Assembly: GCA_017307375.1 (NCBI GenBank)
Contig: JAFKFH010000008.1
Coordinates: forward strand, 310,001 to 374,000
DNA length: 64,000 nucleotides
Reading direction: 5' to 3'
Source of the DNA: Alphaproteobacteria bacterium
GTDB lineage: Bacteria; Pseudomonadota; Alphaproteobacteria; Ferrovibrionales; Ferrovibrionaceae
Shown: one piece after another, positions 19,634-39,853 of the stretch
How the letters are laid out: the number at the start of each line of letters is the position of its first letter
Position numbering within the stretch: the first letter of the stretch is position 1
Translations under genes and position numbers: made by a program
The notes under the pieces: generated by a model
Databases searched by the model: none
The model's input: the letters and a program-made list of their open reading frames with translations, nothing else
What the model was told of the DNA's origin: nothing

Positions 19634-20644
19634 TCAGCGCCGCGGATTGAGCCCGTGCTTGCGCATCAGATGGCGGATCTGGTCATAGGACAGCCCGAGC
19701 GCCCCGGCAGCCCGCCGCTGGTTTCGCCCTGCTGCCGCCAGCGCCTCCTCCAGCAGTCGCCGTTCAAATGCCGCCACCCGAGCACCAAATCCCTCGCCAG
19801 CCGCGTCCTCCCGTGACGGCGCGGCCGCGACCGGCACCGCCTGCGGCGTGGCGCTTCGTGGCGCCGGGCGGTGCGGGGAAACAAAGGGGTCGAGGATCAG
19901 GCGGTCGAGCGGCTGGCCGGGGTCAGCCGCCCTGACCAGGCTCCGCTCGATCGCATTGCGGAGTTCGCGGACATTGCCGGGCCAATCATGACCGGTCAGC
20001 GTGGCCAGCGCCTGGCCCGAAAAACCGGCAAACAGCGCCAGCCCGAGTTCGGCGGCCATCGCGCGCCCGAAATGCTCGGCCAGCGGCGGGATGTCTTCGG
20101 GGCGCGCACGTAATGGCGGCAAGGTGACGACCTCGAAGGCCAGCCGGTCGAGCAGGTCGGCGCGGAACCGTCCGTCGGCGCAGGCAGCCGGCAGATCGAT
20201 GTTGGTCGCCGCGATCACCCGAACGTCGACATCGACCCGGCCGCCGCCGACGCGCTCGAAACTGCCGTATTCGATGACGCGCAGCAGCTTTTCCTGAACC
20301 GCCGCCGTGGCCGTTGCGATCTCGTCGAGGAAAAGCGTGCCGCCGTCCGCGGCTTCGAACCGGCCGGCGCGGCGGCGCTGGGCGCCGGTAAAGGCCCCGG
20401 CCTCGTGACCGAAGAGTTCGCTGTCGAGCAGGCTGTCGGCCAGCGCCGCGCAATTGACGGTGACGAAGGGCTTGTCCCATCGCGGCGACAGGTAGTGGAG
20501 GCGGTTGGCGATCAACTCCTTGCCGGTTCCGCGCTCGCCGATCACCAGCACCGGTCGCGTCACCGGGGCCAGGCGCGAGACCTGGTCTAGTACCGCCGCG
20601 AACGCGGGCGACTGACCGATCATTGGCGGCAGGGCAGATGACAT
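19634..20644 (-). CDS. pspF: Phage shock protein operon activator PspF (sigma-54 EBP)
   Basis: 336 residues from the ATG at 20644. It has no N-terminal receiver, as expected for PspF. The AAA+ domain is complete: Walker A GERGTGKE (36-43), the sigma-54-contacting GAFTGA loop (83-88), Walker B GGTLFLDE (101-108), and the arginine-finger region FRADLLDRLAFEV. The C-terminal Fis-like HTH is RRAAGALGLSYDQIRHLMRKHGL. It is divergent from pspABC, sharing a 167-base intergenic region. Its activity is normally held back by PspA binding. Confidence 0.95.
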   Translation of the reverse strand: MSSALPPMIGQSPAFAAVLDQVSRLAPVTRPVLVIGERGTGKELIANRLHYLSPRWDKPFVTVNCAALADSLLDSELFGHEAGAFTGAQRRRAGRFEAADGGTLFLDEIATATAAVQEKLLRVIEYGSFERVGGGRVDVDVRVIAATNIDLPAACADGRFRADLLDRLAFEVVTLPPLRARPEDIPPLAEHFGRAMAAELGLALFAGFSGQALATLTGHDWPGNVRELRNAIERSLVRAADPGQPLDRLILDPFVSPHRPAPRSATPQAVPVAAAPSREDAAGEGFGARVAAFERRLLEEALAAAGRNQRRAAGALGLSYDQIRHLMRKHGLNPRR

Positions 20645-20662
20645 GCGGCAAATTTTACGACA

Positions 20663-20703
20663 CTTGGGGAAAATTGCCAAATCCTGTGGTGAATTTCCCC
20701 AAG
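20663..20703. promoter_or_regulatory. Putative PspF upstream activator site (inverted repeat)
   Basis: CTTGGGGAAA (20663-20672) is repeated as its reverse complement TTTCCCCAAG (20694-20703). The dyad centre is about 73 bases before the -24 element of the pspA promoter, the normal position for an enhancer-binding protein. It also sits just upstream of pspF, so the same binding could autorepress pspF. Binding is inferred. Confidence 0.65.
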
Positions 20704-20754
20704 AGATCGCGCTTGAGCGGAAGAAAAGTCATATAAATCAATATTTTAGCAATT

Positions 20755-20769
20755 TGGCACGGGAGTTGC
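20755..20769 (+). promoter_or_regulatory. Sigma-54 promoter of pspABC
   Basis: TGGCACGGGAGTTGC matches the -24/-12 consensus TGGCACNNNNNTTGC exactly, with the GG and GC pairs 12 bases apart (20756 and 20768). Transcription should start about 20780, 30 bases before the pspA ATG. Activated by PspF from the dyad at 20663-20703. Confidence 0.9.
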
Positions 20770-20811
20770 CTAGAGAAGCGCGGCCGAACACACGCCCCCA
20801 AGGAGCAGACA

Positions 20812-21498
20812 ATGGGAATCTTCTCGCGACTGTCGGACATCATCAATTCCAACCTCAATGCCCTGCTAGACCGGGCGGAGGATCCGGAAAAGCTGGTTCG
20901 GCTGATCATCCAGGAGATGGAGGACACGCTGGTCGAGGTGCGCTCGACGGCGGTCAAGACCATTGCCGAACGCAAGGAGATCCTGCGCCGCATCGAGAGC
21001 TTCGTGGCCGATCGCGACGATTGGCAGCGCAAGGCGGAACTCGCCATCGAGAAAGGCCGTGAAGACCTGGCCAAGGGCGCGCTGCATGCCCGGGCACGCG
21101 CCGCCGAGATGGTCGCCGACCTCGAGCGCCAGCTCGGTCTGGTCGATGGTGCGGTGGCCAAGACCGGCGAGGACATCGCCCGGTTGCAGGCCAAGCTCGA
21201 CGAGGCCAAGAACCGCGAGAAGGCGCTGCGCGCCCGCCACGACGCGGCGGCGAGCCGGCTGAAGGTGCGCACGCAGTTGCACGACAGCCGGATCGACGAC
21301 GCCTTCGAACGCTTCTCGGCGGTCGAGCGCAAGCTGGACGAGCTGGAAGGCAAGGTCGAGGTCCATGACCTCGGTCGCGGCAAGTCGCTCGCCGAAGAGT
21401 TCGCCGAGCTCGAGGCCGATGACGCGGTCGAGCGCGAGTTGGCCGAACTGAAGGCCCGCGTCGCCGCGCGGCAAGGCGGCACGACGCCGGCACGCTGA
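20812..21498 (+). CDS. pspA: Phage shock protein A
   Basis: 228 residues of PspA/IM30 family, an ESCRT-III-like membrane-stabilising coiled-coil protein that also inhibits PspF. The N-terminus MGIFSRLSDIINSNLNALLDRAEDPEKL is the conserved amphipathic helix and following signature. The remainder is almost wholly helical. The ATG follows AAGGAGCAGACA. First gene of pspABC, 2 bases before pspB. Confidence 0.97.
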   Translation: MGIFSRLSDIINSNLNALLDRAEDPEKLVRLIIQEMEDTLVEVRSTAVKTIAERKEILRRIESFVADRDDWQRKAELAIEKGREDLAKGALHARARAAEMVADLERQLGLVDGAVAKTGEDIARLQAKLDEAKNREKALRARHDAAASRLKVRTQLHDSRIDDAFERFSAVERKLDELEGKVEVHDLGRGKSLAEEFAELEADDAVERELAELKARVAARQGGTTPAR

Positions 21499-25187: not shown

Positions 25188-25610
25188 ATGTCCAGGCGGT
25201 TACATCCCTTGAACCAGAAGGTAGGCGCAAAGGTGCGTGAGCGGCGCATCCTTCTTGGCATGAGCCAGCGGCAGCTGGCCGATGCCATCGGCCTGACCTT
25301 CCAGCAGGTCCAGAAGTACGAGAACGGCACCAATCGAATCGATGCAGCCCGCCTCGCCGCGCTCAGCCAGGCGCTGAATGTGCCGCCGCAGTGGTTCTTC
25401 CATGATCTCGGCGACACCGAGACCGTCAAGGCCCCGACCCTGCCTGTCGATATCGACGAGACCGACGAACTGGCGCGTCGCGAGACGCTGACCCTGATTC
25501 GCGCCTTCAACCGGATCAAGGATCCGGAAAAGCGCGAGCGCCTGATCGAACTGGTCCAGGCGGTCGGCGACGCCGAAGCCGAAGAGGACGCAGCGGTCGC
25601 CGCTGCCTGA
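25188..25610 (+). CDS. XRE-family transcriptional regulator
   Basis: 140 residues; ATG preceded by GAGG with suitable spacing. The Cro/CI-type HTH (about 8-72) reads VRERRILLGMSQRQLADAIGLTFQQVQKYENGTNRI, the form widespread in Alphaproteobacteria. An acidic C-terminal region (about 85-140) contains a KDPEKRERLIELVQ helix. It is likely to be soluble, dimeric and autoregulatory through the upstream dyad. The regulon is unknown. Confidence 0.92.
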   Translation: MSRRLHPLNQKVGAKVRERRILLGMSQRQLADAIGLTFQQVQKYENGTNRIDAARLAALSQALNVPPQWFFHDLGDTETVKAPTLPVDIDETDELARRETLTLIRAFNRIKDPEKRERLIELVQAVGDAEAEEDAAVAAA

Positions 25611-25644
25611 GGTACCGTTCCGGGTTGCCGCGAGGTATCGAACA

Positions 25645-25671
25645 GGGCGCCATGTTGGCTTCATGGCGCCC
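25645..25671 (+). terminator. Stem-loop after XRE gene, possible terminator
   Basis: GGGCGCCATG (25645-25654) pairs with CATGGCGCCC (25662-25671) around a 7-base loop, 34 bases after the XRE stop. No T-run follows, so termination is uncertain. Confidence 0.45.
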
Positions 25672-25721
25672 CGTTGCCCCAGCTTTCGGGCAATGCAAGG
25701 CTTTCGGCGTCAGTGCCGGAA

Positions 25722-25739
25722 TCGCAAAGCCATTTGCGA
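25722..25739. promoter_or_regulatory. Dyad upstream of sigma-54 promoter, candidate activator site
   Basis: TCGCAAA (25722-25728) and TTTGCGA (25733-25739) form a 7-bp inverted repeat with a 4-base spacer. It lies about 125 bases before the -24 element at 25857, the usual distance for a sigma-54 enhancer site. A further 8-bp repeat AGGCGTAG/CTACGCCT is at 25758-25765 and 25793-25800. Confidence 0.4.
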
Positions 25740-25855
25740 AATGCAATGCAATACGAAAGGCGTAGCGCGAATGCGCCTCGTCACGTTCGCCCCTACGCCT
25801 AACGCATGAGGCGGAAAATCGGCGATCCGGGTCGTCGATCAGGCTCTTCGGTCAT

Positions 25856-25870
25856 TGGCACGGCGATTGC
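25856..25870 (+). promoter_or_regulatory. Sigma-54 promoter of LuxR-type regulator
   Basis: TGGCACGGCGATTGC fits the -24/-12 consensus with GG at 25857 and GC at 25869, spaced 12 as in the psp promoter, followed by TTAT. Transcription should start about 25881, 45 bases before the ATG at 25927. Confidence 0.8.
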
Positions 25871-25926
25871 TTATACCACCTCCAAGAGGCTGCGGTTTTC
25901 GTGGCATTCCCTGTTTGGAGGTTGAG

Positions 25927-26391
25927 ATGAAGATTTTGCTGGCCGATGGTTCCGACCGCGGTATCGATTCGCTGAAGGCCGCCTTTGCCGCCCTTAACCC
26001 CCAGGTCGAATTTGCCGCCGCCGATGATTTCGATCGGGCCATCGCCATGGCCCGCCATGATCGCTTTTCGCTGGTCATCCTGGGCCGCGACCTGCCGGGT
26101 CTGGGCGGCGATCGTGTTGCCGAGATGACGGCCGCGACCGATGCGCCCGTGCTGTTCGCCAATGCGGCCGACCCCGCGGCAGCCAACGATCCGTTCCATG
26201 TACTGACGCGGCGCGAGCGCGAGGTGCTCGAGCGCGTCGCCGACGGGCTGTCGAACAAGGATATCGCCCGCCAGCTCGACCTGCAGGAAGTGACCATCAA
26301 GGCCCATCTGCGCCAGGTCTTCCGCAAGCTTGCCGTCCGCAACCGCACCCAGGCGGCGTCACTGATGCTGCAGACCCGCAAGCTCGTCTGA
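25927..26391 (+). CDS. Orphan LuxR/NarL-type regulator with degenerate receiver
   Basis: 154 residues; ATG preceded by GGAGG. Residues 1-80 resemble a response-regulator receiver (ILLADGSDRG, FSLVILGRDLPGLGGD), but the phosphoacceptor position is Gly53 and the N-terminal acidic pair is reduced to Asp-Gly. The last strand and helix of the receiver are missing before the HTH begins. The LuxR HTH (92-150, LTRREREVLERVADGLSNKDIARQL and VTIKAHLRQVFRKL) is intact. It has no partner kinase nearby, a sigma-54 promoter in front and a strong terminator behind. Probably phosphorylation-independent. Confidence 0.85.
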   Translation: MKILLADGSDRGIDSLKAAFAALNPQVEFAAADDFDRAIAMARHDRFSLVILGRDLPGLGGDRVAEMTAATDAPVLFANAADPAAANDPFHVLTRREREVLERVADGLSNKDIARQLDLQEVTIKAHLRQVFRKLAVRNRTQAASLMLQTRKLV

Positions 26392-26440: not shown

Positions 26441-26466
26441 GGCCGGCCCCGATCCCGGGGCCGGCC
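26441..26466 (+). terminator. Rho-independent terminator after LuxR-type regulator
   Basis: GGCCGGCCCCG (26441-26451) pairs perfectly with CGGGGCCGGCC (26456-26466) around a 4-base loop and is followed by CTTCCTTTTC. It separates the regulator from the photolyase gene. Confidence 0.85.
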
Positions 26467-26492: not shown

Positions 26493-27884
26493 ATGCCCGC
26501 CCCCGCCATCTTCTGGTTTCGCCGCGATCTGCGGCTCCATGACAACCCCGCGCTGATCGCCGCGGCCGATGGCCGCCCGATCGTTCCGCTGTTCGTCCTC
26601 GACGACGAGGCACCCGGCATGCGTCCGCTGGGGGGCGCCAGCCGCTGGTGGCTCCATCACAGCCTCGCCGAACTGGCCGCCGGGCTGGAGCGGCGCGGGC
26701 TCGAGCTGGTCTTGCGGCGCGGTCCGGCCGCGCGGATCCTGGCGGAAATCGCGGCAGAGACGGGCGCCGACAGTATTTTCGCCGGCAGCCGGCCCGAACC
26801 CGATGCCATCGCCCGCGACCGTGCGTTGATTCCGGCGCTGCGGCAGCATGGGGTTACGCTGACCCTGGTGGCCGACAGCCTGCTGTTCAGCCCCAGGCGG
26901 CTGATGACCGGCGCAGGCGAGCCGTTCAAGGTTTTCACCCCGTTCTGGCGCGCTGCCCTGGCACTGGGCGATCCGCCGGCATCTTCCGGCGTTCCCGGTC
27001 TCATGCCGGGTCCCGCCTGTCGCGGCGACGATCTCGATGACTGGCGCCTGCTGCCGTCGACGCCGGATTGGGCCGGCGGCCTGCGCGCGGCCTGGCAGCC
27101 GGGCGAGACCGCGGCCCGCGACCGGCTGGCCCGATTCGTCGATCGCGGCCTCGGCGACTACGGACGGCTGCGCGACCTGCCGGCGGTGGACGGGACCTCT
27201 CGCTTGTCGCCGCATCTGGCATGGGGCGAGATCAGCCCGCGCCAGGTCTGGCACGCCGTGCGGGGGCGTGAAGACGGCACCGGCGCCGCCAAGTTCCTGT
27301 CCGAGGTCGGCTGGCGCGAATTCTCCTACCACCTGCTCCTGGCCAGTCCCGGTCTGGCCGAGGCCAACTGGCGCGCCGATTTCGACCGGTTCCCGTGGGT
27401 GGAGGACAAGGCCACCTTCCGGGCATGGCGCCGCGGCGAGACCGGCTATCCGATGGTCGACGCCGGCATGCGCGAATTGCGGTCCACCGGATACATGCAC
27501 AACCGCGTGCGCATGATCGCCGGCTCGTTCCTGGTCAAGCATCTGCTGACCGACTGGCGCCGCGGCGAGGCCTGGTTCTGGGACAACCTGGTCGACGCCG
27601 ACCATGCCAACAATGCCGCGAGCTGGCAGTGGGTCGCCGGGTCCGGCGCCGACGCGGCCCCCTATTTCCGCATCTTCAATCCGGTCCTGCAGGGCGAGCG
27701 CTACGACCCGGACGGCACCTATGTCCGGCGCTGGCTGCCCGAACTGGGTGGCTTGCCGGCAACGGCGATCCACAAACCATGGACGCTGGCCAAGCCGCCC
27801 CGTGACTATCCGGCCCCGATCGTGGATCATCGGCTGGCGCGGGATCGCGCGCTGGCGGCGTTCCAGTCCCTGAAAACGAAATGA
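26493..27884 (+). CDS. phr: Deoxyribodipyrimidine photolyase (class I CPD type)
   Basis: 463 residues. Light-driven flavoenzyme that splits cyclobutane pyrimidine dimers. The N-terminal antenna-binding Rossmann domain starts IFWFRRDLRLHDNPAL. The FAD domain carries TSRLSPHLAWGEISPRQVW, FLSEVGWREFSYHLL and the signature region TGYMHNRVRMIAGSFLVKHL, with WFWDNLVDADHANNAASWQWVAG-type residues beyond. It opens a plus-strand run with the HAD, cyclotransferase and GNAT genes. Confidence 0.96.
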   Translation: MPAPAIFWFRRDLRLHDNPALIAAADGRPIVPLFVLDDEAPGMRPLGGASRWWLHHSLAELAAGLERRGLELVLRRGPAARILAEIAAETGADSIFAGSRPEPDAIARDRALIPALRQHGVTLTLVADSLLFSPRRLMTGAGEPFKVFTPFWRAALALGDPPASSGVPGLMPGPACRGDDLDDWRLLPSTPDWAGGLRAAWQPGETAARDRLARFVDRGLGDYGRLRDLPAVDGTSRLSPHLAWGEISPRQVWHAVRGREDGTGAAKFLSEVGWREFSYHLLLASPGLAEANWRADFDRFPWVEDKATFRAWRRGETGYPMVDAGMRELRSTGYMHNRVRMIAGSFLVKHLLTDWRRGEAWFWDNLVDADHANNAASWQWVAGSGADAAPYFRIFNPVLQGERYDPDGTYVRRWLPELGGLPATAIHKPWTLAKPPRDYPAPIVDHRLARDRALAAFQSLKTK

Positions 27885-39572: not shown

Positions 39573-39827
39573 GCCCTTGCCTCCCTGTTCTTGTTGAAAC
39601 GAGGTCGTAAAGACAGCGCCTGGGGGCCTGCCCGTTCCCAGCCGGGCTTCAACCCCCGCTCTATGCTAGCGGAACGGCATGACGGTCATCGGGCCCCCAT
39701 CGTCGACATCCCCGGCTGGCTGCCTATTCCCCAGGCTGCCAACATTATGGTCACAATATTCGCGGGCGCTTGTGCGTCAAGACTTCTCGCCCCGCGCGCC
39801 GCCCCCGGCTTCCTGCACAAAGCAAAC

Positions 39828-39853
39828 GGCGTGCCAGGTAGCCCTGGCACGCC
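39828..39853 (-). terminator. Stem-loop terminator/attenuator between aapJ and aapQ
   Basis: GGCGTGCCAGG (39828-39838) pairs perfectly with CCTGGCACGCC (39843-39853) around a 4-base loop; on the minus strand GTTTGCTTTG follows. It lies 33 bases after the aapJ stop. Partial termination or mRNA protection here would give more binding protein than membrane components. The rest of the aapJ-aapQ spacer (39573-39827) shows no gene. Confidence 0.75.

Follow-up and report, generated by a model that had tools for sequence, protein, structure and literature searches.

A LuxR-type regulator with a crippled receiver behind a sigma-54 promoter and a LuxO-type box: candidate control by synthesis in an alphaproteobacterium

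How is the activity of a response regulator set once its receiver can no longer accept a phosphoryl group? In full-length proteins of the NarL/FixJ type, the unphosphorylated receiver restrains the helix-turn-helix (HTH), and the LuxR-type proteins CsgD, VpsT and BglJ, which carry degenerate receivers, are not phosphorylated in the usual way. Regulators with aspartate-less or pseudo-receivers include HP1043, ChxR and Rem (PMC12632262) as well as BldM and WhiI (PMC4125116). In some models, such proteins are active as made and controlled by their availability (PMC12632262, PMC4395418), and a 2025 review treats the on/off control of regulators with dead receivers as a mystery (PMC12632262). A gene of this kind is found on the plus strand of the window, i.e., the whole 64-kb stretch of DNA that was analysed, with its ATG at 25927 and its stop codon ending at 26391. 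Its surroundings suggest an answer in which synthesis of the regulator is governed by a particular class of activator, namely LuxO/SypG-type enhancer-binding proteins (EBPs) acting with sigma-54.

The output domain and the remnant receiver

Judged by sequence comparison and a structural model, the 154-residue product of this gene is a regulator of NarL/FixJ type with an intact HTH and a crippled receiver. Both the intact LuxR-type HTH and the truncated receiver fold had been proposed from the translation alone and were recovered by profile searches and modelling. The LuxR/GerE HTH (residues 92-146; 26200-26364, plus strand) matches Pfam family PF00196 with 75.3 bits against a cut-off of 23.5 (E 2.9e-21) and, by eye, possesses the consensus residue at each of the 11 columns that are nearly invariant in alignment A1. 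This alignment, which consists of the window protein and 40 of the 95 relatives remaining after filtering, served as 41-row input for an AlphaFold2 model (mean pLDDT 90.7, pTM 0.54) that was used instead of a poor single-sequence run (pLDDT 57.2). In the model, the HTH fits the NarL, LiaR and VraR DNA-binding domains at 0.6-1.8 Å rmsd (Foldseek); whole-model matches show high rmsd owing to a different placement of the domains, close superposition being limited to the HTH. The receiver profile Response_reg (PF00072) covers residues 3-77 and ends at position 75 of 111 (profile 1-75) with 18.1 bits (E 0.003), i.e., below the cut-off of 30.2 for a complete receiver. In agreement, the modelled remnant (residues 2-78; 25930-26160, plus strand) runs beta1-alpha1-beta2-alpha2-beta3-alpha3-beta4, followed by a short linker and the HTH. 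Hence, alpha4, beta5 and alpha5 are absent, and four strands plus three helices take the place of the (beta-alpha)5 topology of pseudo-receivers.

The residues for phosphotransfer, whose lack characterizes pseudo-receivers, are largely gone as well. Four of the five residues defining a working receiver are altered or missing: the phosphoacceptor is Gly53 (codon 26083-26085, plus strand), the second acidic residue is Gly8, the Thr/Ser position is Asn79 and the segment with the lysine is deleted, which leaves Asp7 (DD1) as the sole retained residue. Gly53 is therefore no isolated point mutation, as three other active-site residues are lost as well and the receiver lacks its end. Its assignment to the aspartate site, already made in the sequence-only reading, holds up once 109 relatives are aligned (29 loci from related genomes and 80 from a species-wide scan, with a few duplicates such as L003/L035): this column contains Asp 101 times, Ala three times, Gly and Glu twice each and one gap. 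Some of the exceptions are poorly aligned proteins, but by eye the Gly of L074 and the Ala of L021/L023 seem reliable.

That same reading had held that relatives with a normal aspartate would mark the substitution as a recent mutation. Such relatives are in fact the rule, but they are distant full-length regulators and not orthologs. The species-wide scan covered one genome each of 84,980 species, from which records nearest to the window genome may be excluded, and the best 80 of 254 confirmed stretches were used; those among them that match along the full query comprise about 200 residues and show 30-35% identity in the best segment, higher identities of up to 77% being confined to the HTH. 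Among 385 genomes of the class (up to nine first-look candidates scored per genome), only the window genome gave a match to the 154-residue protein at E<=1e-17, and in 61 related genomes the next best matches were the HTH alone or full-length regulators. Because these three sets, very near records possibly being excluded, yielded no ortholog with the truncation, conservation of the truncation or of the promoter cannot be demonstrated. The proposed search of relatives for the same glycine and promoter likewise yielded little: besides the two glycines, sigma-54 sites within 300 bp upstream of the relatives barely exceed the reversed control (11 of 109 versus seven at up to two mismatches; two versus one at up to one mismatch). 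L021 and L023, from two species of one sister genus, are LuxR-type regulators with Ala at the phosphoacceptor position; 194 bp ahead of their start lies a sigma-54 site with one mismatch, and the LuxO-type box described below is absent from their upstream regions at up to two mismatches. The Gly-bearing regulator L074:4899-5522 from an Octadecabacter MAG combines a Glu-Glu acidic pair with a full-length receiver.

Might the gene simply be decaying, with an eroded receiver, an inert product and a promoter left from a working ancestor? The normal receiver of most relatives and the missing ortholog with the same truncation would fit such a history. It nevertheless appears improbable, as the frame is open with a GC3 of 0.81, identical to that of the neighbouring XRE gene, the HTH has kept its consensus residues, Pro at D+4 and Gly at D+8 are retained in the remnant receiver, and the gene is equipped with a good Shine-Dalgarno sequence, a perfect promoter and a stem behind it.

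As in known pseudo-receiver regulators, the receiver is thus recognizable by homology and lacks phosphotransfer residues; in contrast to them, the end of the fold is missing too, and a control route is visible in the form of a sigma-54 promoter and an enhancer box. With CsgD, VpsT and BglJ the protein shares a LuxR HTH behind a non-canonical receiver. To our knowledge, the receivers of these three are not shortened in this way, and we know of no sigma-54-driven case among them. Because the receiver cannot take a phosphoryl group, the activity of the regulator would be set by its synthesis, and a DNA-binding domain without a switchable receiver would act in proportion to its amount. As the unphosphorylated receiver is what restrains the HTH in NarL/FixJ proteins, loss of alpha4-beta5-alpha5 should free it, and the protein is probably active as made. 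It would accordingly represent a descendant of a NarL/FixJ-type response regulator that functions as a phosphorylation-independent DNA-binding protein and binds its own targets through the LuxR-type HTH.

A different role for the remnant, as a sensor or docking part through which a ligand or partner controls the protein after synthesis, as in VpsT and c-di-GMP, is conceivable though on the doubtful side, and is compatible with control of synthesis by a LuxO-like relay. Retention of beta1 to beta4, which AlphaFold2 predicts well, speaks for it, as does the presence of VpsT among the Foldseek matches, at low TM-score; control of pseudo-receivers is, moreover, described as largely mysterious (PMC12632262). 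The surfaces of alpha4, beta5 and alpha5 are missing, though.

The sigma-54 promoter and the borders of the gene

The consensus sigma-54 promoter postulated earlier is indeed an exact match: TGGCACGGCGATTGCT (TGGCACG-N4-TTGCT) at 25856-25871 on the plus strand conforms perfectly to TGGCAC-N5-TTGCW and ends 55 bp before the start codon, and the genome contains rpoN in one copy. From the promoter geometry, transcription is predicted to start at 25882 (plus or minus 2), 12 bp past the GC of the -12 element. In the 7.54 Mb genome, eight exact matches to TGGCACGNNNNTTGCW compare with six for the reversed control, and with these numbers the motif count alone proves little. Judging from sequence context, the motif is enriched by position and hardly by number: six of the eight sites have a plausible start codon no more than 60 bp downstream, while five of the six reversed-control sites fall inside long ORFs of high GC3. 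The six well-placed sites precede, by eye, genes for an ABC ATPase, an arsenite-oxidase small subunit, flgF, dctA, an unassigned protein and the 154-residue regulator, all gene names being our interpretation of the translations. Two of these genes have an EBP gene just ahead of them, with the arsenite-oxidase small subunit about 0.1 kb and dctA about 0.5 kb behind it. The seventh site is located about 230 bp before a nitrite-reductase-like gene and is also overlapped by a short ORF of high GC3. The eighth, at 39821-39836 on the minus strand of the window, overlaps an inverted repeat GGCGTGCCAGG...CCTGGCACGCC (39821-39853) situated between two genes read as those of an amino-acid transporter, and its motif is probably accidental.

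This accidental look of the only other exact match in the window, together with the small excess over the reversed control, would suit an account in which the motif upstream of the regulator is likewise a chance match and expression stems mainly from another promoter or from read-through. We consider this account quite unlikely, given the short distance to the start codon and a simple scan of E. coli type that yielded no sigma-70-like match on the plus strand between 24500 and 28000. Longer transcripts could, in addition, have their Shine-Dalgarno sequence masked by a hairpin. Sigma-54 would be the main route of expression. The complement in question, ACCTCCAA (25878-25885, plus strand), pairs perfectly with the Shine-Dalgarno arm TTGGAGGT (25915-25922, plus strand, with GGAGG at 25917-25921), and an 8-bp complement of this kind has a chance of about 0.002. 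A transcript from the predicted start carries half of it and longer transcripts carry all of it; the half-lost complement might favour translation of the sigma-54 transcript. A strong Shine-Dalgarno hairpin was rejected, as the folding z-scores of four versions of the leader are unremarkable (-1.70 to -0.25), and the complement is retained as an observation.

The gene appears to stand by itself. Upstream, a 140-residue XRE/Cro-type HTH protein (25188-25610, plus strand; Pfam HTH_3, 63.2 bits) forms a separate unit and is followed by an inverted repeat at 25641-25675. Downstream, the terminator noted before corresponds to a stem of 11 pairs of G+C at 26441-26466 (plus strand) with a weak T tail, past which a gene read as a DNA photolyase (26493-27884) apparently constitutes a separate unit. 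Elsewhere in the window, the phage-shock pair pspF (minus strand) and pspA is found at 19634-21495, and the gap separating the two genes contains a near-consensus sigma-54 site, TGGCACGGGAGTTGCC (20755-20770).

The LuxO-type box and its candidate activator

Further upstream, the sequence-only reading had drawn a dyad, TCGCAAA-N4-TTTGCGA (25722-25739), and placed it 125 bases before the promoter. The dyad is exact and centred about 125 bp ahead of the -24 element. The genome contains it once; when up to two mismatches are allowed, 17 places were counted against 13 for the reversed control, for which reason a function as genome-wide operator was rejected, and no further copy is found in the 64-kb window at this tolerance, the pspF-pspA gap included. 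As drawn, the dyad is probably not an operator. A LuxO-type box, TTGCGAAATGCAA (25734-25746), has the right arm of the dyad as its left half and is one mismatch away from TTGCAWWWTGCAA, which serves LuxO as upstream activating sequence (PMC10162802). The left arm may belong to a second, degenerate box (25715-25727, plus strand), of which the right half alone, AATCGCAA, fits the pattern, so that the dyad may be read as the inner halves of two tandem boxes.

The better box ends 109 bp upstream of the -24 element of the regulator's promoter, and the chance of a box with at most one mismatch in 246 bp amounts to about 0.003 with the composition of the region and 0.0005 with that of the window. A relaxed pattern, TTGCRWWWYGCAA, which was chosen with the window site already seen, has three exact matches in the 7.54 Mb and 13 at up to one mismatch, against seven for the control. 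Among the three exact boxes, only that of the window is accompanied by a sigma-54 site of at most one mismatch within 320 bp; the second lies inside an ORF read as RecQ, and the third about 110 bp before a transporter-like gene, the only sigma-54 site there having two mismatches and being located inside that gene. Among the ten one-mismatch boxes, that of L159 is followed by a one-mismatch sigma-54 site, 193 bp on.

Two points count against assigning the box to a LuxO-like activator: its position 5 is G in place of the A of TTGCAWWWTGCAA, and one good box is present, whereas LuxO sites, located about 100 bp upstream, usually come in two (PMC11407668). Activation by LuxO and by SypG was reduced in V. 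fischeri when an A was replaced by C (PMC10162802), and by our own mapping this substitution would fall on the base that corresponds to position 5 of the window box. The sites found for V. cholerae LuxO by ChIP-seq read ttgcaaaatgcaa, ttgcaatttgcaa and ttgcattttgcaa, along with ttgcaaatcgcga, which gave a small signal (PMC10328515). The mirror-image base is changed in this weak site and in one of 12 other alphaproteobacterial sites (L198).

Which protein could use the box? The genome encodes ten full EBPs, two additional weak matches being Clp-type ATPases by eye. Nine of the ten are NtrC, NtrX, FlbD, PspF, a DctD-like, an AioR-like and an AcoR-like protein (the latter three named by our own assignment), a PAS-domain EBP and an unassigned one. 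The tenth, C38:653648-655084, is by sequence an EBP of LuxO/SypG-like type with receiver, AAA+ and Fis-type HTH domains (Pfam). Its best NCBIfam match is the LuxO model over its full length; as the 621.8 bits stay below the curated equivalog cut-off of 800, it is called LuxO-like only. Its best solved relative is LuxO 5ep0 with 463 bits, compared with 326 for the next different protein, so that LuxO is the protein it resembles most. In its HTH, GNIPRAAALLEVSPSTLYRKI, four of the six critical helix-3 residues of LuxO (Ser423, Ile425, Tyr426, Arg427, Lys428 and Leu429; PMC11407668) are apparently identical and two conservatively changed, according to an alignment by eye. LuxO homologs outside Vibrio have been noted before, one of them in Bradyrhizobium by reciprocal best hit (PMC524169). 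Directly behind the LuxO-like gene, an ORF of 828 residues (L176:6947-9433) encodes receiver and HPt domains, and a HisKA/HATPase kinase core was not found in it at E<=0.01; it is possibly a kinase-dead relay.

With ten EBPs at hand, PspF encoded only 5 kb away in the same window and the box mismatched at a sensitive base, sigma-54 control might be real and yet be exerted by another EBP, the LuxO-type box being coincidental or used by a different protein. This is an unlikely alternative on the present evidence. In a consensus search, neither a full NtrC pattern at up to four mismatches nor a NifA-type site is present in 25610-25856, where a shortened NtrC pattern gives two matches with three mismatches each; a NorR pattern, GT-N7-AC, is uninformative, its sole match being located within the promoter. 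The dyad, as mentioned above, is not repeated in the window, and sites combining box and sigma-54 promoter accompany LuxO-like genes across the class.

We therefore regard it as somewhat more likely than not that a LuxO-like relay controls the amount of a phosphorylation-independent regulator via the box at 25734-25746 and the sigma-54 promoter. In this scheme, a phosphorelay would set the state of the LuxO/SypG-like EBP, encoded elsewhere just before the receiver-HPt protein; the EBP would bind the box and activate the promoter at 25856-25871, and its action through this box is proposed from sequence. The earlier proposal of sigma-54 and EBP control with phosphorylation-independent activity fits the placement of the promoter, the single rpoN, the ten EBPs and the loss of four of five receiver residues, while the dyad it drew probably has to be read differently. 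If the scheme is true, the phosphorylation input sits at the EBP and the output domain of a response regulator has become a dose-controlled second tier; the sensing step thus seems to have moved one level up, from the regulator to its synthesis.

Two known arrangements come close. Nac is a LysR-type protein answering NtrC, whereas the protein described here carries a GerE HTH of unrelated fold, and only an analogy of function is proposed: an EBP turns on the gene of a regulator, which relays the signal to other promoters. Nac of enteric bacteria, activated by NtrC, acts on sigma-70 genes (PMC6299236). Closer in its elements is the control of Qrr small RNAs and syp genes by LuxO and SypG in Vibrio, where the box is the same but for one base, the distance falls in the same class of about 100 bp and a sigma-54 promoter is used (PMC10162802, PMC10328515). 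The LuxO-like EBP of the window genome additionally adjoins a receiver-HPt relay protein. Unlike in Vibrio, the host belongs to the Alphaproteobacteria, a DNA-binding protein takes the place of a small RNA or polysaccharide locus as the target, and the EBP scores below the curated LuxO cut-off.

Box and sigma-54 sites in other Alphaproteobacteria

If LuxO-like proteins use the box in Alphaproteobacteria, box and sigma-54 site should recur alongside such proteins. Among 385 alphaproteobacterial genomes, six combined sites with a gap of 90-120 bp were detected in five genomes and seven with a gap of 60-89 bp in seven genomes, i.e., 13 sites in 11 genomes including the window genome, and the reversed pattern gave none. 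A LuxO-like EBP (E<=1e-130) is encoded in 10 of these 11 genomes compared with 76 of all 385, the latter number being the 101 at E<=1e-110 minus 25 weaker ones with four candidates scored per genome, and the threshold having been fixed with the scores already seen. The association has a Fisher p of 5e-7, or 2e-6 without the window genome, shared ancestry being ignored. G049, the sole exception, is an assembly of 84% completeness. Additionally, a LuxO-like gene is found no more than 14 kb away from five of the remaining 12 sites (57 bp in G261, 5 kb in G123, 9 and 13 kb in G233 and 10 kb in G240), for which a rough model gives a chance near 8e-7.

The site in G261, which starts 57 bp behind the matched end of the LuxO-like gene, is followed by a protein of 169 residues (L193:938-1444) with an OmpR-type output domain in which no receiver was found. 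By its sequence this protein parallels the window regulator and would be a second, independent case. On this basis, it is tentatively suggested, as a notion still short of probable, that LuxO/SypG-type sigma-54 circuits of Alphaproteobacteria hand their signal to DNA-binding proteins with shed or crippled receivers. Among the literature matches listed, which cover few subscription papers, neither a LuxR-type regulator that has a dead receiver and is driven by sigma-54 nor LuxO-type boxes in Alphaproteobacteria were found.

More generally, the finding draws attention to combinations of LuxO/SypG-type box and sigma-54 promoter in this class, ahead of polysaccharide-type genes, short proteins and possible small RNAs. 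In L195 and L197, box and sigma-54 site are followed by no convincing ORF, and strong hairpins occur soon past the predicted start; these two are possible Qrr-like small RNAs by their layout, although a terminator scan of L197 found no terminator and an Rfam search of L170, L193, L195 and L197 returned no Qrr, with one tRNA in L170 and three other matches far below gathering scores. Short proteins follow in L171, L172 and L174, without a Pfam match, and in L175, with a doubtful one, while a receiver protein is encoded in L196 and a protein without assignment in L198. Genes of polysaccharide type are located downstream in L173 (O-antigen ligase, below cut-off), L194 (HlyD, and PilZ below cut-off) and L199 (epimerase), and by analogy with these promoters one might guess that the targets of the window regulator concern surface polysaccharide or biofilm.
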